From positions 1 through 47,057 of the forward strand of contig JAFRPY010000054.1 in assembly GCA_017428925.1 (NCBI GenBank): a stretch of 47,057 bases of DNA, in the 5' to 3' direction. The DNA comes from Prevotella sp. (lineage in GTDB: Bacteria > Bacteroidota > Bacteroidia > Bacteroidales > Bacteroidaceae). The notes below the pieces were generated by a model that did no database searches, had not been told where the DNA came from, and saw only the letters and a list, made by a program, of their open reading frames with translations. Positions within the stretch are counted from its first letter, which is position 1. Each line of letters begins with the position of its first letter. This document shows, piece by piece, positions 2,859 to 46,125 of the stretch. Made by a program: the position numbers and the translations under genes.

Positions 2859-2999
2859 TTGCCAATCTCGGCAATGCGAGTTGTAATTTCAATGAAATTG
2901 CAGAGTAATTTCAATGAAATTGCCGACCAATTTCAATTAAATTGCTGACCAATTTCAATGAAATTACAATCAAAAAGATGGAGTTTGGCAATCGGAACG
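2859..2999. repeat. Four-palindrome intergenic element, copy A
   Basis: The 15-bp near-palindrome AATTTCAATGAAATT starts at 2885, 2907, 2929 (one variant base) and 2951, exactly 22 bp apart, bounded by GT on the left and AC on the right. Flanking TTGCCAAT (left) and TTGGCAAT (right) make the whole element roughly palindromic. Copies B (20364) and C (40494) share the layout. Confidence 0.85.
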
Positions 3000-3069
3000 C
3001 CGATTTTTGGCATGATAAACGATGGGAGAAAGATGAAGGTTGAAAGATGAAGGATGAGGGACTGGCGGG

Positions 3070-10014: not shown

Positions 10015-10059
10015 AATTAACAGTGCCAAGCCCCATTCCGAGGCTTGGCACTGTTAATT
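10015..10059. terminator. Bidirectional terminator hairpin, copy 1
   Basis: Arms of 18 bases (10015-10032 and 10042-10059), with core AACAGTGCCAAGCC and its complement, close a 9-base loop; TTT follows. It ends the lyase transcript. A nearly identical hairpin lies at 10883-10924, beyond the PIN module. Confidence 0.85.
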
Positions 10060-10378: not shown

Positions 10379-10798
10379 ATGGACAATGTCGTCATCGATA
10401 CAAACAGCCTAATTATAGCCATATCATCGAGAAGTGCCTATCATAGAATTTGGCAGTCATTTCTTGCTGGCGACTATTGTCTTTGTGTTTCAAACGAAAT
10501 TCTTGAGGAATATGCAGAGGTAATCGCACGAAACATTAGCGTCAATGCAGCCCGCTATGTTGTTTATACCATCATGGAGCGTAAAAATGTCAGACAGATA
10601 ACGCCTTCATATAAGTGGAATCTCATTACCGCTGATCCAGATGACAACAAATTTGTAGATTGTGCCATTGCAGCCAACGCAAGATTCATTGTCACAGAAG
10701 ACCATCATTTCAATGTGCTCAAAGAGATCAACTTTCCATCCGTTGACGTGATAAATATTGATGACTTCCTAAAGGAGATTTTATCGAAATATTCATAA
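10379..10798 (+). CDS. PIN-domain toxin (COG1569 family)
   Basis: Protein of 139 residues. PIN acidic residues are in place: D7 in NVVIDTNSLI, E in SNEILEEYAEVI, D in ADPDDNKFVDCAIA and D in FIVTEDHHF, so a metal-dependent RNase activity is expected. The C-terminus (INFPSVDVINIDDFL) is typical of COG1569. An earlier ATG frame from 10313 would overlap the antitoxin gene; 10379 gives the family start MDNVVIDTN. Its stop codon overlaps an ATG (TAATG) that opens a stub reading MYNPQDRLR, also found after the HepT gene at 45937. Confidence 0.85.
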   Translation: MDNVVIDTNSLIIAISSRSAYHRIWQSFLAGDYCLCVSNEILEEYAEVIARNISVNAARYVVYTIMERKNVRQITPSYKWNLITADPDDNKFVDCAIAANARFIVTEDHHFNVLKEINFPSVDVINIDDFLKEILSKYS

Positions 10799-10833
10799 TG
10801 TATAACCCTCAAGATAGATTGCGTATGACATAG
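10798..10833 (+). pseudogene. Stub of a third gene behind the PIN toxin
   Basis: The ATG overlaps the PIN stop as TAATG and reads MYNPQDRLRMT, then stops. The 28 bases at 10796-10823 recur exactly at 45935-45962 behind HepT, again starting at the stop codon. It looks like the start of a lost, translationally coupled gene; the family is unknown. Confidence 0.55.
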
Positions 10834-10882: not shown

Positions 10883-10924
10883 ATTAACAGTGCCAAGCCC
10901 CATTCTGAGGCTTGGCACTGTTAT
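10883..10924. terminator. Terminator hairpin, copy 2
   Basis: The same 14-base arms as copy 1 (10886-10899 and 10909-10922) with one base changed in the loop. It lies between the convergent PIN and S41 protease transcripts. The two copies bracket the PIN module. Confidence 0.75.
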
Positions 10925-11007: not shown

Positions 11008-12618
11008 TTACAACAGCTCCAACGCCCGTTGGACGATGGGGTTCTGCGTGTTCATAATCTGGTAGTATTCGTTCATTTCCCAAAGATCGCGGGCGATGAG
11101 CGCCTTCAGCTGAAGGCGCAGATAAGGCAACGTGCGCTGCAGCTCTTCGTCATCCTTTGGCTTTACGTTCTGCTTTTCGGCCTCGGCCAAAATCTGGTCG
11201 GTCACGCTCTTCGGAACCTCAAACTGGTTTTTGAAGGTTGCGAAGTCGGGATAAGTCTTCTTCAGCTGCTTGCGGTTATTGTCGATATAACGCAGGTTGG
11301 CATTGATGATGATGCTCTTGGCGGCCAACTGGCGGTGGAACCGGGTGTACTGCAAAGTGTCGAGTGGCACGAACTCGTCGGGCATGATGCCGCCACCACC
11401 ATAGACGGTGCGATGGCGGCGCAGGGTATAGCACTTCAGCGAGTCGTCGAAATGGATGCTGTCGCGGTTGGTCAGTTCACCATGCTTCAGGCGGTTCTCG
11501 AAGTCCATCTCATATTCTTTCAGTTCTCCTTTCTTATAAGGTTTCTGGATGCATCGCCCAGCTGGCGTGAAGTAATGGGCAACCGTCAGCCGTATCATGG
11601 AGCCGTCGGGAAGGTCGATGGGGCGCTGCACCAGTCCCTTGCCGAAGGTACGGCGTCCGACGATGATGCCGCGGTCTTGGTCTTGGATGGCTCCCGAGAC
11701 GATTTCGGCAGCCGAGGCCGTCAGTTCGTTGACGAGCACGACCACCTTACCCGAAAGCAGCTTGCCGCCACCATCAGCAGTATAGTTGGTGCGTTTCTGA
11801 GTTCTTCCCTCGGTATATACGATAAGGTCGCGCGACTGGAGGAACTCGTTGGCTATCTTGACGGCAGCCTGAAGATAACCGCCGCCATTGTCCTGTAGGT
11901 CTACTATCAGGCTGCTCATTCCCTGAGCCTGCAGTTTCTCCACGCCATCCATAAATTCCTTGTAGGTGTTGGCACCAAAGTTCCCCATGCGGATATAGCC
12001 CACACCGGGACGAATCATATAGACGGCATCGATGCTGTGGACGGGAATCTTGTCGCGCTTCACGGTGAAATAGAGCATATTCTTCACGCCTCGCCTTACA
12101 ACGCCGAGCTTCACTTTCGTTCCGCGGGGACCGCGAAGGCGTTTCATGATCTCTTCCTTCGACATCTTCACACCGGCGATGGCCGTATCGTTGACGTTCA
12201 CGATGCGGTCGCCAGCAATGATACCCACCTTCTCGGAAGGTCCGTTGACGACGGGCTGTATGACGATAAGCGTATCCTCGACCATATTGAACTGCACGCC
12301 AATGCCGTCGAAATTACCCTGAAGGGGTTCGTTCATCGTCTTCACCTCTTGGGCGGTAGCATAGGTGGAATGCGGGTCGAGTCCCTTGAGCATGCCCCGT
12401 ATGGCGTCTTCCACCAGTTTCTCATTGTTCACGGTATCGACATAATAATTGGATATGGCCATTTCGGCCATGTTCAGTTTCCTGAGCGGACTTCCACTAC
12501 CGATATTGAATCGGAATTGAGCGAAAGAAGTGAGGGGGAGGAGAAGCAACAAGAGACCCACCCCAGCCCTCCCTATAGGGAGGGAGCAATTACTTTTTAT
12601 ACGATAATTGAGTTTCAT
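11008..12618 (-). CDS. S41 family C-terminal processing protease
   Basis: Protein of 536 residues with a periplasmic signal peptide, an N-terminal helical region, a PDZ domain (about 90-180) and an S41 protease domain. The catalytic Ser is S302 in NELTASAAEI and the Lys is K327 in RRTFGKGLVQ, the dyad of CtpA/Prc proteases, which trim envelope proteins. The signal region is odd: residues [12 protein letters not shown] between the basic start and the hydrophobic core are encoded by a dispersed GC-rich repeat (12554-12589), so the repeat has become part of the export signal. Start at 12618; an ATG at 12627 would add MYK. It probably belongs to the minus-strand operon with parE. Confidence 0.85.
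   Translation of the reverse strand: MKLNYRIKSNCSLPIGRAGVGLLLLLLPLTSFAQFRFNIGSGSPLRKLNMAEMAISNYYVDTVNNEKLVEDAIRGMLKGLDPHSTYATAQEVKTMNEPLQGNFDGIGVQFNMVEDTLIVIQPVVNGPSEKVGIIAGDRIVNVNDTAIAGVKMSKEEIMKRLRGPRGTKVKLGVVRRGVKNMLYFTVKRDKIPVHSIDAVYMIRPGVGYIRMGNFGANTYKEFMDGVEKLQAQGMSSLIVDLQDNGGGYLQAAVKIANEFLQSRDLIVYTEGRTQKRTNYTADGGGKLLSGKVVVLVNELTASAAEIVSGAIQDQDRGIIVGRRTFGKGLVQRPIDLPDGSMIRLTVAHYFTPAGRCIQKPYKKGELKEYEMDFENRLKHGELTNRDSIHFDDSLKCYTLRRHRTVYGGGGIMPDEFVPLDTLQYTRFHRQLAAKSIIINANLRYIDNNRKQLKKTYPDFATFKNQFEVPKSVTDQILAEAEKQNVKPKDDEELQRTLPYLRLQLKALIARDLWEMNEYYQIMNTQNPIVQRALELL
12554..12589. repeat. CTATAG GC-rich palindromic repeat, copy 1 (inside the protease signal peptide)
   Basis: It contains the palindrome CCCTCCCTATAGGGAGGG, preceded by AGACCCACCCCAG. 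On the minus strand it encodes the [11 protein letters not shown] stretch of the S41 protease. Confidence 0.85.
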
Positions 12619-13008: not shown

Positions 13009-13046
13009 ACTCCCTCCCTCATAGGGAGGGCGGGGGTGGGTCTCCC
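13009..13046. repeat. CTATAG-type repeat, copy 2
   Basis: CTCCCTCCCTCATAGGGAGGG followed by CGGGGGTGGGTCT, in the inverse orientation to copy 1. It fills the gap between parE and the DUF559 gene, ending 3 bp from the parE stop codon. Confidence 0.8.
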
Positions 13047-13048
13047 TT

Positions 13049-15070
13049 TTACTCCTCCGCCCTATCCTCTTCAATCACCAGATTGTCGATGATGAAGTTC
13101 TGGCGCTCCATGGTGTTCTTACCCATGTAATACTCTAAGAGTTTCTGCACCTGATCGGTCTTGTGGAGCGTGACCTGCTCAAGGCGAATGTCGGGACCGA
13201 TAAAGCCGGCAAATTCTTCGGGACTAATTTCGCCCAGTCCCTTGAAACGGGTGATTTCGGGATCGGGGCCCAACTCGCTGATGGCCTTCACGCGCTCTTC
13301 CTCGCTGTAGCAGTAACGGGTGATGAAGTCGCTCTTCTTGTTGTTGGACGTGTGCTGGGCTTCAGCAGACTGGCTTTCGGCCAGCACCTTCTTGTTTTTA
13401 ATCTTCGTCCGGCGGTTGCGCACTCGGAACAGAGGCGTCTGCAACACATAGACGTGACCTTTCTTGATAAGGTCGGGGAAGAACTGCAGGAAGAAAGTGA
13501 TGATGAGCAGGCGGATGTGCATGCCGTCGACATCAGCATCGGTAGCCACTATCACTTTATTATAACGTAGGGTATCGAGACCGTCTTCAATGTCGAGCGC
13601 CGCTTGCAGAAGATTGAACTCCTCATTCTCGTAAACCACTTTCTTGGTAAGTCCAAAGGAGTTGAGAGGCTTTCCGCGAAGCGAGAACACAGCCTGAGTG
13701 TTTACGTCGCGGCTCTTGGTGATGCTTCCACTGGCGGAGTCGCCCTCGGTGATGAAGATGCAGGATTCCTCCTTGCGCTCGTTCTTGACGTCGGAGTAAT
13801 GGATGCGGCAGTCACGCAATTTGCGGTTGTGCAGGTTGGCCTTCTTGGCGCGCTCGCGGGCCAGCTTGGTCACGCCGGCCATCGCCTTCCTTTCGCGCTC
13901 GCTGGAGGTAATCTTCTCGAGCATCGTATCGGCAATCTCAGGATTCTTGTGCATGAAGTTGTCCACTTCCTGCTTGATAAAGTCGCCCACGTATTTGTTT
14001 ACCGAAACCCCGCCGGGACTCATAGTGAGCGAACCGAGCTTGATTTTGGTCTGGCTCTCGAACATCGGCTCCTCCACGTTAACGGCGATGGCTGCAACAA
14101 TACCATTTCGGATGTCGCCATACTCGAAATTCTTGCCATAGAACTCTTTGATGGTCTTGGCAATATGCTCCTTGAAGGCACTCTGGTGGGTTCCGCCTTG
14201 GGTGGTGTGCTGCCCGTTCACGAACGAATGGTATTCTTCACCATACTGATTGGTATGGGTGAAGGCAATCTCGATATCCTCGCCCTTGACGTGAATGATG
14301 GGATAGATAGGATCGTTGGTCATCGCGTCGGTGAGCAAGTCTTTCAGTCCGTTGCGCGAGAGGATGCGCCGGCCATTGTACATAATGGCCAGACCTGTGT
14401 TCAGGTAAGTATAGTTGCGCAGCATGGTTTCCACGAACTCATCGTGGAACTTGTAGTTTTTGAAGAGAGTGTCGTCGGGTTCAAAGAAGATGTAGGTGCC
14501 GCGCTCGTCCTGAGTCGGCTCGGTGGTGTCGCTCACCAACTCGCCGCGCTCGAACTTGGCCGTGCGCACTTTGCCGTCGCGATAGGAACGCACCTCGAAA
14601 TGCGAACTGAGAAAGTTGACGGCCTTGATGCCCACGCCGTTCATGCCCACCGATTTCTTGAAGGCCTTGGAATCGTATTTGCCACCGGTATTGAGCTGGC
14701 TGACAGCCTCGATCATCTTCTCCTGCGGGATGCCGCGTCCATAGTCGCGGAGCGTCACGCGCAGATTGTCGTCGATGTCGATTTCTATGCGCTTGCCCTC
14801 GTTCATGCGGAACTCGTCGATAGAGTTATCGATAGCCTCCTTGAGTAGCACGTAGATACCGTCTTCCGTCTGCGACCCGTCGCCCAAACGGCCGATATAC
14901 ATACCGGGACGGGTACGGATGTGCTCAATGTCAGAAAGGTGGCGGATGCTGGAGGCGTCGTAGTCGACAGAAGACCCACCCCCAGCCGGAGACCCACCCC
15001 CACCCTCCCTATGAGGGAGGGAGTTATTACTATCTACCGTGTTTTGTTTTTCTATATCTTCTTTTGCCAT
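13049..15070 (-). CDS. parE: DNA topoisomerase IV subunit B
   Basis: Protein of 673 residues of the GyrB/ParE type. Visible motifs: the ATP-binding Asn in [15 protein letters not shown], the glycine-rich lid [12 protein letters not shown], the Toprim motifs EGDSASGS and [12 protein letters not shown], and a short C-terminus (ENE..., ending [11 protein letters not shown]). It decatenates and relaxes DNA together with ParC, which is not in the window. The start at 15070 ([10 protein letters not shown]) is chosen over 15124. Residues about 17-35 ([17 protein letters not shown]) are encoded by a GC-rich repeat, so this N-terminus is a recent addition before the conserved [24 protein letters not shown] start of the family. 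Confidence 0.92.
14972..15026. repeat. CTATAG-type repeat, copy 3 (inside parE)
   Basis: A double-length copy: AGACCCACCCCCAG, then the same motif again, then CCCTCCCTATGAGGGAGGG. It encodes the low-complexity N-terminal tail of ParE. Confidence 0.85.
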
Positions 15071-15155: not shown

Positions 15156-15197
15156 TTTGCTCCCTCCCTATAGGGAGGGCGGGGGGAGGGTCTTCTT
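15156..15197. repeat. CTATAG-type repeat, copy 4 (supplies a stop codon)
   Basis: CTCCCTCCCTATAGGGAGGG followed by a G-rich arm. On the minus strand it encodes the last residues (TLPPPSL) and the TAG stop of the GNAT protein that ends at 15168. Confidence 0.85.
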
Positions 15198-17730: not shown

Positions 17731-18816
17731 ATGAAAATGAACATGGACAACTGGATAAAAAAGATTATCCAGAAACATGACGTGGTGGCCATACCCGTGA
17801 TGACGCATCCGGGAATAGAACTAAACGGAAGAACTGTAACGGAAGCCGTCAGCGACGGGACGGTGCACTTCGAGGCGGTGATGACACTGGCGGAACGCTA
17901 TCCGGCGGCGGCAGCCTGTACGATTATGGACCTGACCGCAGAGGCAGAATGCTTCGGGGCAGAGATAGAGTTCTCCGACATTGCCGTGCCTGCCGTGCGC
18001 GGACGACTGCTGAACAACCTGGAAGAAATCGAACGGCTGAAAGTGCCGTCGCTGAACAGCGGGCGCATTCCGCAGTTCCTAAAAGCCAACCTGCTGGCCG
18101 CCGAACAAATCGACGACCGACCGCTTTTCGCCGGATGTATCGGTCCGTTCTCGCTGGCAGGCCGACTCTACGACATGAGCGACATCATGGTACTGATCTG
18201 CGAAGAACCCGACGCGGCCCACGAACTGCTCGCAAAATGCACGGAATTCATCTTGAAATACTGCATGGCACTGAAAGAAACGGGCGCCAACGGCGTACTG
18301 ATGGCCGAACCGGCGGCCGGACTGATGAGCAACGAACAGTGCATCGACTTCTCGTCACTCTACGTAAAATACATCGTCAGCAAAGTACAGACGCCCGAAT
18401 TTTCAGTGATTCTTCATAACTGCGGCAACACAGGCCACTGCACGAAAGCGATGGTGGAGACTGGAGCCGCCATGTATCATTTCGGAAACAAGTGTGCGAT
18501 GTGCGAGGTGATGGAAGACGTGCCGCCTACAGCCTTAGGCATGGGCAACATCGACCCGGTAAGTATCTTCAAGGATGCCCTGCCGTCGCAGATGAAACAG
18601 GCGGTGAAACACCTGTTGGAGCAAATGCGCCGTTTCCCCAATTTCGTACTTTCAAGCGGATGCGACACGCCGCCGCAAACGCCCCTGCATAATATTGACG
18701 CATTTTTTGAAACATTAGACGAATGGAAAAAAGAAGACCCACCCCAGCCCTCCAGACCCACCCCTACCCTCCCTATAGGGAGGGAGCAAATAGTTTTAAG
18801 GGGTATAAAGAAATAA
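17731..18816 (+). CDS. Uroporphyrinogen decarboxylase-family (MtaA-like) methyltransferase
   Basis: Protein of 361 residues of the UroD fold, closer to the corrinoid-dependent methyltransferases (MtaA/CmuA group) than to HemE. A zinc site is visible: HNC in VILHNCGNTGHC and the late Cys in LSSGCDTPPQTPLHN, the HxC...C pattern of methylcobamide:thiol methyltransferases. ATG 17731 is chosen over the GTG at 17725. The next gene is a MetH activation domain, which supports a role in corrinoid methyl transfer, perhaps in a short methionine synthase system; no corrinoid-binding protein is in the window. The last ~25 residues (EDPPQPSRPTPTLPIGREQ...) come from a dispersed repeat. Confidence 0.8.
   Translation: MKMNMDNWIKKIIQKHDVVAIPVMTHPGIELNGRTVTEAVSDGTVHFEAVMTLAERYPAAAACTIMDLTAEAECFGAEIEFSDIAVPAVRGRLLNNLEEIERLKVPSLNSGRIPQFLKANLLAAEQIDDRPLFAGCIGPFSLAGRLYDMSDIMVLICEEPDAAHELLAKCTEFILKYCMALKETGANGVLMAEPAAGLMSNEQCIDFSSLYVKYIVSKVQTPEFSVILHNCGNTGHCTKAMVETGAAMYHFGNKCAMCEVMEDVPPTALGMGNIDPVSIFKDALPSQMKQAVKHLLEQMRRFPNFVLSSGCDTPPQTPLHNIDAFFETLDEWKKEDPPQPSRPTPTLPIGREQIVLRGIKK
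18735..18789. repeat. CTATAG-type repeat, copy 5 (end of the methyltransferase)
   Basis: AGACCCACCCCAGCCCTCC, a second AGACCCACCCC, then ACCCTCCCTATAGGGAGGG. It is read through and forms the C-terminal tail of the UroD-like protein. Confidence 0.85.
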
Positions 18817-20363: not shown

Positions 20364-20444
20364 AATTTAGACTAAATTACAAAGTAAATTAGACTAAATT
20401 GAAAAGTAATTTAGACTAAATTGCTAAGTAAATTAGACTAAATT
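20364..20444. repeat. Four-palindrome intergenic element, copy B
   Basis: The 15-bp palindrome AATTTAGACTAAATT (or AAATTAGACTAAATT) starts at 20364, 20386, 20408 and 20430, exactly 22 bp apart, bounded by GT and AC. The palindrome sequence differs from copies A and C, but number, spacing and AT-rich arms are the same. Confidence 0.85.
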
Positions 20445-35795: not shown

Positions 35796-35831
35796 CCGGC
35801 TTCTCCTGAAACGTCATCCATAACGGAAGAC

Positions 35832-35847
35832 TGTTTCACGTGAAACA
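35832..35847. promoter_or_regulatory. parS centromere site 1
   Basis: TGTTTCACGTGAAACA, a perfect 16-bp palindrome identical to the canonical ParB-binding parS sequence, between mnmG and apt. Confidence 0.9.
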
Positions 35848-35894
35848 ATTGCGCTTAAAAAAGACAAATAAATCAAACCAAAACCGATAAAAAC

Positions 35895-36428: not shown

Positions 36429-36457
36429 CGGTGTTGATACACAAACGAAGGAGTGAA

Positions 36458-36473
36458 TGTTTCACGTGAAACA
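36458..36473. promoter_or_regulatory. parS centromere site 2
   Basis: A second exact TGTTTCACGTGAAACA, 626 bp from site 1. It lies inside an upstream extension of the uvrC frame (would read VSRET), which supports the later uvrC start. Confidence 0.9.
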
Positions 36474-36512
36474 AATCGCACGCAATTACCTTTTAGTAAA
36501 CACTTTAACAGA

Positions 36513-40441: not shown

Positions 40442-40475
40442 TAGCCGTTCCACACCGCCTGGAACGGCTATTTTA
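40442..40475 (+). terminator. Terminator after deoC
   Basis: TAGCCGTTCC and GGAACGGCTA (10-bp arms, 9-base loop), followed by TTTTATTT. Confidence 0.85.
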
Positions 40476-40493
40476 TTTGCCCGTAACGATGAT

Positions 40494-40657
40494 TCGGATT
40501 GCCAAAAAGCATCGTCCGAGTTGTAATTTCAATGAAATTGCAAAGCAAAATCAATGAAATTGCTCAGCAATTTCAATTAAATTGGTCGGCAATTTCATTG
40601 AAATTACAACTCGAATCATACGCTTTGGCAATTCGAACGATGATAATTGGCAAGAAA
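40494..40657. repeat. Four-palindrome intergenic element, copy C
   Basis: Fifteen-base palindromes (AATTTCAATGAAATT and variants) start at 40525, 40547, 40569 and 40591, exactly 22 bp apart. The array is bracketed by CGAGTTGTAATTTC on the left and its complement GAAATTACAACTCG on the right, and further out by GATTGCCAA and TTGGCAATTC. The left half reads almost the same as copy A. Confidence 0.88.
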
Positions 40658-40663
40658 AATAAA

Positions 40664-45555: not shown

Positions 45556-45937
45556 AAAACTTCAGATGGTCTATGAGACCTTAAAGAATATTGAAACGGC
45601 CATCACCCGACTACAGGAGCGGACAGTGCAGATTCACACTGCCGACGATTTCCTTCTTTCACCCTTTGGCATGGAGAAACTCGATGCGGCCTGTATGGTG
45701 CTCATTGCTTTGGGCGAAGCTGTAAAAACGCTCGACAAACTCACCAACAAGGAATTACTTCCTACATATCCCTCTGTAGAATGGAAGAAAGTAATGGGGG
45801 CAAGAGACATCATGGCCCATCACTATTTTGAGGTTGATGCCGATGAAGTGTTCAACATCATAAAGAACGACCTGGAACCCTTGAAGAAAGCTATCGACTA
45901 TTTCAAGCAAGAGTTGTTTAGTAATAACAATCAGTAA
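45536..45937 (+). CDS. hepT: HepT-type HEPN toxin (RNase)
   Basis: Protein of 133 residues, all-helical DUF86/HEPN fold. The catalytic Rx4-6H motif is in KKVMGARDIMAHHYFEVD (R, then H five residues later, followed by HY). HEPN RNases of this type act on tRNA or mRNA until AMPylated by MntA. Overlap with mntA indicates coupled translation. The stop codon TAA overlaps an ATG that opens a partly degraded third frame, whose first 28 bases are identical to the sequence behind the PIN toxin at 10796. Confidence 0.87.
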   Translation: MEFESTEKLQMVYETLKNIETAITRLQERTVQIHTADDFLLSPFGMEKLDAACMVLIALGEAVKTLDKLTNKELLPTYPSVEWKKVMGARDIMAHHYFEVDADEVFNIIKNDLEPLKKAIDYFKQELFSNNNQ

Positions 45938-46125
45938 TGTATAACCCTCAAGATAGATTGCGCGTGAACACAGAGTCCCCCGTTCATCTCGAATACATTA
46001 CTTTACAAATTAATACAATTTATCATACTCACTTGATTCTTTCTTTTCTCTATTTTCTGATTCGTAATTTACATTTTCTCCTAGTATATCTGCCAGTTGA
46101 TTATAAAAATCTTCACTTATTTTAA
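45937..46125 (+). pseudogene. Stub of a third gene behind HepT
   Basis: Overlaps the hepT stop (TAATG) and reads MYNPQDRLRVNTESPVHLEY, after which (from about 46005) it becomes AT-rich and runs antisense into the next gene. The first nine residues, and all 28 bases at 45935-45962, match the stub at 10796-10833. Probably the start of a lost coupled gene cut off by the insertion of the AT-rich segment. Confidence 0.55.

Follow-up and report, generated by a model that had tools for sequence, protein, structure and literature searches.

Palindrome arrays on a fixed 22-bp lattice in Prevotella and related Bacteroidales as predicted binding sites of HU-HIG proteins

Several chromosome-organising proteins, including ParB (with parS), MatP (with matS), SlmA and Noc, have dispersed sites on the chromosome, while the REP, BIME and REPIN elements, which go with RAYT, consist of longer palindromes that are usually rich in GC and associated with a tyrosine transposase. 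HU-type proteins are low-specificity DNA binders, and the known HU relatives of the HU-HIG family act as dimers. The expansion of HU-HIG and the HU superfamily in Bacteroidetes is reportedly treated by Burroughs et al. in 2017, with roles predicted from domain context, and we know of no cognate DNA sites given there. The intergenic palindrome arrays described here resemble the ParB-parS, MatP-matS, SlmA and Noc systems in their palindromic, dispersed sites and in a dedicated DNA-binding protein, here a putative one. They differ in their HU-type partner, in a strict multi-unit lattice of 22 bp, in predicted paralogue-specific codes and in that the promoter of the protein itself carries the same array. 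With the REP, BIME and REPIN elements they share the clustering of dispersed intergenic palindromes, but those elements have no strict 22-bp lattice.

Closer relatives by position and taxonomy have been described in the Bacteroidales. BrickBuilt, a MITE of Porphyromonas gingivalis, is made of 23-nt head-to-tail repeats without spacers and, like the arrays, is intergenic, multi-copy and built on an internal short tandem repeat, whereas it has a leader and a tail with inverted ends, and its abstract mentions no HU-HIG link (PMC4596501). The arrays, with a period of 22 and palindromic units separated by spacers, do not belong to BrickBuilt. PINSR, a 188-bp repeat of Prevotella intermedia present in 177 copies in one strain and 184 in another, is likewise intergenic and non-coding, with positions largely conserved between strains, and differs, going by its description, in being reported without terminal inverted repeats (PMC4755523). 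The P. gingivalis HU protein PG0121, studied for its binding to a 77-bp inverted repeat at the capsule locus, is also a case of a Bacteroidales HU protein and a large inverted repeat; going by its description, it is however a canonical HU acting at one locus with broad, structure-tolerant binding and with neither lattice nor paralogue code (PMC3969353). In the open-licence literature, no account was found of HU-HIG binding sites or operators, or of a 22-bp palindrome layout. That a protein may have dispersed sites is in itself nothing new; a fixed 22-bp palindrome lattice with paralogue codes for an HU-type family has, as far as we found, not been described, and would be new provided that the proteins bind it.

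The window, that is, the whole 47,057-nt stretch of Prevotella sp. DNA that was analysed, belongs to an 85%-complete assembly (hereafter G000). All three arrays that the original prediction had placed in it (A, B and C; Table 1) are present, each with four 15-bp units 22 bp apart, and all of them sit between ORFs and overlap no gene, as had been proposed. Some of the units are imperfect palindromes, AATTTCAATTAAATT being unit 3 in both A and C and AAAATCAATGAAATT being unit 2 of C, and the left arms in array B alternate between AATTT and AAATT. The 7-bp spacers are variable, mostly with a purine first and a pyrimidine last, and a C or T precedes the palindrome in 93% (type I, 51 units) and 98% (type II, 62 units) of symmetrised positions. 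The outer flanks of A and C consist of further 22-bp units with a TTGNCAA-type junction, inverted in orientation between the two sides, which extend the lattice past the limits first given to these elements. The whole-element palindrome that had been proposed for both is clear for C; A, though its flanks are like those of C, was not listed as a self-palindrome. A generic, sequence-agnostic detector (at least three units, at least 6 of 7 pairs) found two lattices in the window against none in 100 first-order Markov simulations, array C falling below its cut-off because of its unit 2; the window arrays are not due to chance. Array A lies between divergent genes, for an AAA_14/DUF4143 ATPase and a VTC-domain protein, and C between convergent genes, for a DeoC/LacD aldolase and a polyprenyl synthetase (Pfam), while B lies between two convergent genes, neither of which matches a Pfam family. 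No transposase was found by Pfam among the tested flanking genes, in line with what had been claimed. A CRISPR array, which would have identical repeats and unique spacers beside cas genes, was considered and rejected: the 7-bp spacers are semi-conserved, and no cas family was found among the eight window genes scanned.

Table 1. Positions of array and repeat features in the window.
Feature	Position	Strand	Details
Array A (type I)	2885..2965	.	units start 2885/2907/2929/2951
Array B (type II)	20364..20444	.	four AAWTTAGACTAAATT units, starts 20364/20386/20408/20430
Array C (type I)	40525..40605	.	units start 40525/40547/40569/40591
A, right outer units	2966..3009	.	22-bp period kept (ACAATC..., GCAATC...; TTGGCAA junction); sequence reading
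A, left outer unit	2863..2884	.	inverted relative to right side; sequence reading
C, right outer 22-bp units (two)	40606..40649	.	TTGGCAA junction; sequence reading
C, left outer 22-bp units (two)	40481..40524	.	inverted; sequence reading
Whole type I element C, single 193-bp imperfect palindrome	40469..40661	.	arms 40469-40564 / 40566-40661, 96 nt, 76% complementary
CCCTCCCTATAGGGAGGG/AGACCCACCCC repeat	12554-12597, 13009-13045, 14988-15033, 15156-15185, 18754-18797		both orientations

Other repeats were also observed in the window. The sequence TGTTTCACGTGAAACA, presumably a ParB parS site by its appearance, occurs in two copies (35829-35848 and 36455-36474) that flank the start of a uvrC-like gene. 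A second dispersed repeat is formed by a GC-rich palindrome of the CCCTCCCTATAGGGAGGG type adjoining AGACCCACCCC (Table 1). Near-identical hairpins, TTAACAGTGCCAAGCCCC...GGCTTGGCACTGTTA, stand at 10018-10058 and 10883-10923 on either side of an ORF region, and two 94% identical copies of TAATGTATAACCCTCAAGATAGATTGCG lie 35 kb apart (10796-10828 and 45935-45967).

Two dispersed families were found in G000, type I, to which A and C belong (13 arrays), and type II, to which B belongs (16 examined, with weaker type II pieces also present). The window arrays are therefore not isolated copies, and multiple conserved dispersed sites were observed, with 29 arrays in G000 and at least 40 in Prevotella koreensis. 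Twelve type I arrays have four units and one has five, while the type II arrays have three (6 arrays), four (3), five (6) or seven (1) units. Exactly four units at 22 bp had been proposed; the period is fixed and four is the usual number, but unit number ranges from 3 to 9 across families. By a crude gene call, 28 of the 29 arrays overlap no ORF, the exception being L040 near a contig end, and the gaps that hold them are convergent (4), divergent (4), tandem (3) or of unresolved type (2) for type I, and convergent (4), divergent (4), tandem (7) or unresolved (1) for type II. Type I cores were found in no other of the 398 genus genomes sampled, the two other hits having different cores. In a separate observation, the three-unit type II arrays L063 and L062 (G000:C16 14178-14249 and 18744-18815) are separated by 4.6 kb; their flanks are near-identical and their neighbour genes paralogous, and they represent a duplicated segment.

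The lattice was also observed widely outside this genome. A three-unit pattern with AATTT/AAATT arms matched nine of 200 same-genus genomes, G000 included, and P. koreensis KCOM 3155 (G061) carries its arrays, with a different core, across the main contig (40 of 137 candidates were scored); among 26 examined there, 17 have four units, 4 have three and 5 fall below the finder. A scan of named genomes gave at least 109 stretches, and among the matches listed 64 of 80 are from Prevotella or Prevotellaceae; their cores are of many kinds, but the lattice is the same. The retained loci hold 97 arrays, 26 with three units, 44 with four and 27 with five to nine; ten Campylobacter-labelled MAGs and six further loci, 16 of the listed 80, were dropped from these counts and from the motif counts of dispersed arrays given below, and 29 stretches outside the listed titles (L238-L266) were retained. 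Two of the dropped loci, L159 (labelled Clostridiales) and L185 (a Bacteroidia MAG), nevertheless resemble real lattices. The array searches fixed the palindrome arms, and therefore arrays with other arms were missed. When 20 other genomes of the genus were sampled over 337 kb in total (four stretches being shorter than 20 kb), the generic detector found no lattice, so the arrays are sparse; G006, G028 and G032, blank in this sample, later proved to carry HU-HIG arrays. Other periods are nearly absent, with one 24-bp lattice (in 200 kb of G028) and one 23-bp lattice (L443).

Some repeats met in these searches are of another kind. Four stretches of viral contigs were set aside by eye as AT-rich tandem repeats, and the hits of the reverse-pattern control in G049, G063, G027 and part of G173 are 11-bp direct tandem repeats of the TTAAAGGGGAG type. 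These many-copy repeats (L094-L097 and L102-L105, from G173, G027, G049 and G063, with 87 pattern matches in G049) have half of the 22-bp period and carry TTAA in place of AATT. The Campylobacter-labelled MAGs (L158, L177, L186, L188, L194, L209, L211, L225, L227 and L237) contain AAATTTGATTAAATTT-like motifs in clusters, which do not seem to follow a strict lattice.

A conserved DNA-binding protein that co-occurs with the arrays had been envisaged in the original prediction, which named no protein family and thereby missed the link to HU-HIG. When 191 array-adjoining ORFs were clustered by similarity, the largest cluster comprised six members of a ~150-residue protein, and in every one of them the array lies 5' of the gene. 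The three members scanned are HU-HIG proteins (PF18291; 70.9, 80.7 and 86.4 bits against a cut-off of 26.2). This DNA-binding family is HU/IHF-like, and a Prevotella genome has several paralogues of it. The remaining neighbours differ among the HU-HIG loci L168, L174, L236, L257 and L260, and the smaller clusters are duplicate or orthologous loci, pairs and one lipoprotein-like trio (L056, L242 and L262), in which L242 and L262 have alike flanks. In G000, a HU-HIG gene (G000:C93:33576-33914(-)) has a type II array upstream, followed by decaying AGACTAA units, and is the candidate partner of array B. No type I partner was found in the 85%-complete assembly, and a HU-HIG partner of A and C with AATTTCAATKAAATT units upstream is predicted in its missing part. 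Profile matches of the HU-HIG proteins to solved HU chains were weak (E 0.0018-0.0077), and AlphaFold on five HU-HIG sequences gave a model too poor for use (pLDDT 47). A protein search of phages gave no HU-HIG hit, and one of plasmid records gave a single distant hit, on a 1.77-Mb Prevotella replicon, without a lattice there.

An alignment of eleven array-linked HU-HIG proteins (A1) was searched in 200 genus genomes and gave 16 genes in 15 genomes at ≥200 bits, the next score being 158; for this subfamily, 0/295 was obtained outside the genus, in the wider order, at E 1e-28. With one gene at a contig edge left out (G153), 15 top genes were evaluable. The detector found an upstream 22-bp lattice at 11 of the 15 top loci and at 4 of the 15 next loci, with none at the other periods from 17 to 29. 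The relaxed finder added lattices at G129 and at the second G162 gene, while G136 has three upstream units just below its cut-off, and at the P. koreensis gene the array lies beyond an IS-like insertion adjoining the start codon (25-26-bp perfect inverted repeats; L321 2471-3560, G061:C1 about 2317970-2319059). Arrays are present at 15/15 evaluable top genes, one being weak (G136) and one displaced (P. koreensis), and six of the seven evaluable close relatives outside the seeds were positive by detector or finder, the seventh (G136) being weak.

Among 82 HU-HIG genes preceded by 200 bp or more of available sequence, the detector found the upstream palindrome lattice at 24, with 58 lacking it, a rate that is not a genus-wide frequency because 59 of the genes come from genomes picked for arrays and 23 from A1 hits. 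None was found at periods 16-21 and 23-30, or in 411 control windows of the same loci (Fisher p 8e-21, over three sets of genes, two of them drawn from array-selected genomes, and with non-independent orthologues). The relaxed finder gave 26/82 genes and 2/411 control windows, again with none at other periods, and in five of the 24 positive cases the distance between array and start codon exceeds 250 bp. A sample of the order was also inspected, comprising 41 genomes chosen regardless of arrays, 12 of which, G000 included, had HU-HIG hits. Nine of the 25 new loci were excluded (six weak hits that have in-frame stops, one N-masked, two with unclear starts). The best repeat lag was 22 in 9/16 inspected upstream regions (from four genomes), and no other lag was found in more than two of them (23 at L443). 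Their units differ completely, as in GCTGTCAGCTGACAGC, CCACTGGAGTGG and ATGATGCGCATCAT, and number often four, sometimes four plus four.

The upstream arrays also keep a register with the promoter. TAnnTTTG is the -7 element motif, and the last palindrome lies 35-36 or 57-59 bp before it in 19 of the 20 distinct promoters with the motif, two distance classes that are one 22-bp lattice step apart; the sole exception is the P5-50 promoter. The nominal p value of the register overstates independence, since there are many orthologues among these genes. Three of 29 entries were unevaluable, a duplicate (L174, the same as G032) was removed afterwards, and for G149 the motif used is the one at 58 rather than another at -1. 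The motif is missing downstream of the array in five promoters (G134, UBA4268b, G186, the second G028 gene and the C93 gene of G000). At the dispersed arrays, 78 such motifs were counted near 434 array ends, and one near 42 type I ends, some ends being counted twice and the five HU-HIG loci named above being left out. The register there is weak (22/78 motifs in three phases, p 6e-4), and the dispersed copies are not simply promoters.

Related HU-HIG proteins have related cores: the distances between proteins correlate with those between cores (Mantel r 0.525, 0/5000 permutations, 28 pairs, 3 of 31 HU/array pairs having been dropped beforehand as distant or doubtful). Moreover, the promoter core is also the dispersed core in UBA4268 (L399), RUG178 (L415), RGIG3786 (L401), G162 (L294 with the AATTTAGATTAAATT arrays), G184 and, for both of its cores, G044, and in G000 the dispersed type II core is that of the array at the HU-HIG gene on C93. 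In 200 kb of one G028 contig, known beforehand to contain HU-HIG hits, four arrays have the HU-HIG promoter core and four have AATGTTATTAACTTT, with one of the latter directly before a second HU-HIG gene. In 200 kb of G186, its promoter core AAAACAAGTTGTTTT was seen in 2 of 10 detections, others being different. Composite arrays, a layout missed in the original prediction, were observed as well. The outer units of those in RUG178 (GAGCATTGCTC type) match the array upstream of the second HU-HIG paralogue, and in G595 quartets of two cores stand in one register (L454) or a gap apart (L449 and L453), the arrays L446, L448, L449, L453 and L454 combining CAATG and CAAATTG types as four plus four or four plus three. 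Other genomes do not match. In G035 the promoter core AAATCAAATTGATTT is related to, but different from, the dispersed core AATTTAAATTAAATT; the dispersed CATTG core of P5-50 matches no lattice at five HU-HIG loci, where the sole promoter array is of the CAAATTG type; and RUG12994 has AGACT arrays, yet no lattice at five fetched HU-HIG loci. G136 and these non-matching genomes weigh against a universal rule.

The same lattice might instead be bound by another regulator, one that controls HU-HIG genes together with other loci. The HU-HIG link is one of association, type I and P5-50 arrays are without a matched HU-HIG promoter, and in RUG178 the cores next to two 86%-identical HU-HIG proteins are unrelated, the arrays lying ~300-350 bp away from the start, all of which would suit such a regulator. 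We nevertheless regard it as unlikely, because core sequence tracks the HU-HIG paralogue, paralogues of one genome differ in core (G028, G162 and RUG178) and further families of the order show the HU-HIG link too, so that a separate regulator would need to diversify in step. Each HU-HIG protein probably has a private binding code.

Mobility in trans was considered for the dispersed copies, that is, that they are non-autonomous MITE-like elements moved by a transposase, the HU-HIG promoter being carried or co-moved. The intergenic copies are dispersed, type I is a long inverted repeat, and array B has a 100% identical 91-bp copy at G000:C97:21639-21729 with the flanks of the two loci unrelated, all of which would suit such movement. 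At their ends, type I is symmetric as a whole and type II has only borders of the GT...AC type. However, no obvious target-site duplication was seen by eye at the type II borders. Orthologous arrays persist between species (L224/L232/L200 and L181/L182), and where they were seen to differ, the change is in the central base, in the spacer or at an A/T position of an arm. No recurrent transposase family was found among the 191 clustered array-flanking ORFs, not all of which were named by Pfam, and this speaks against the REPIN or MITE alternative of the original prediction, and mobility explains neither why unrelated palindromes keep to one fixed 22-bp lattice nor the -7 register; we judge it quite improbable. 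Least credible by far is the alternative that the arrays function as RNA, either as hairpins, which had been raised originally, or as terminators. In its favour are the long near-palindrome of type I and the positions of B and C, each in a convergent gap and preceded by terminator-like hairpins. Against it, an Rfam search of the window gave 0 matches at gathering scores, arrays occupy convergent, divergent and tandem gaps alike, and in 18/24 HU-HIG upstream regions the array comes before the -7 motif, which places the array outside the transcript.

We therefore consider it likely that the arrays are HU-HIG binding lattices, paralogue-specific, autoregulatory at the protein's own gene and probably architectural elsewhere. 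Each HU-HIG paralogue would read its own short palindrome, and a single palindrome would hold one dimer. Since steps of 22 bp are about two helical turns, successive dimers, most often four, would come to lie on the same face of the DNA and may pack together. The line-up of dimers on one face had been suggested originally, and gains indirect support from the upstream association with HU-HIG, the -7 register and the paralogue-dependent palindromes. At the promoter of a HU-HIG gene, the array, held in its fixed register with the -7 element, would set the level of the protein itself. For the dispersed copies a role in architecture or in titrating the protein is favoured; they may anchor or soak up HU-HIG at intergenic sites, most simply as sites of nucleoid architecture, and composite arrays would bring units of two codes onto one lattice. 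A more far-reaching reading, which we put forward tentatively and as somewhat less than an even chance, is that the Bacteroidales possess a multi-channel address system, in which private quartet codes of the paralogues, all on a common 22-bp lattice, mark their own promoter and dozens of further sites, and mixed HU-like filaments form in register.

If the binding reading is true, the entire HU-HIG family would have sequence-specific operators that can be read from genomes alone, and a class of dispersed intergenic repeats would be explained. The many natural pairs of protein and code would also serve for learning how the HU fold reads sequence, and chromosome organisation in dominant gut and rumen bacteria would become testable by binding assays and ChIP-seq.
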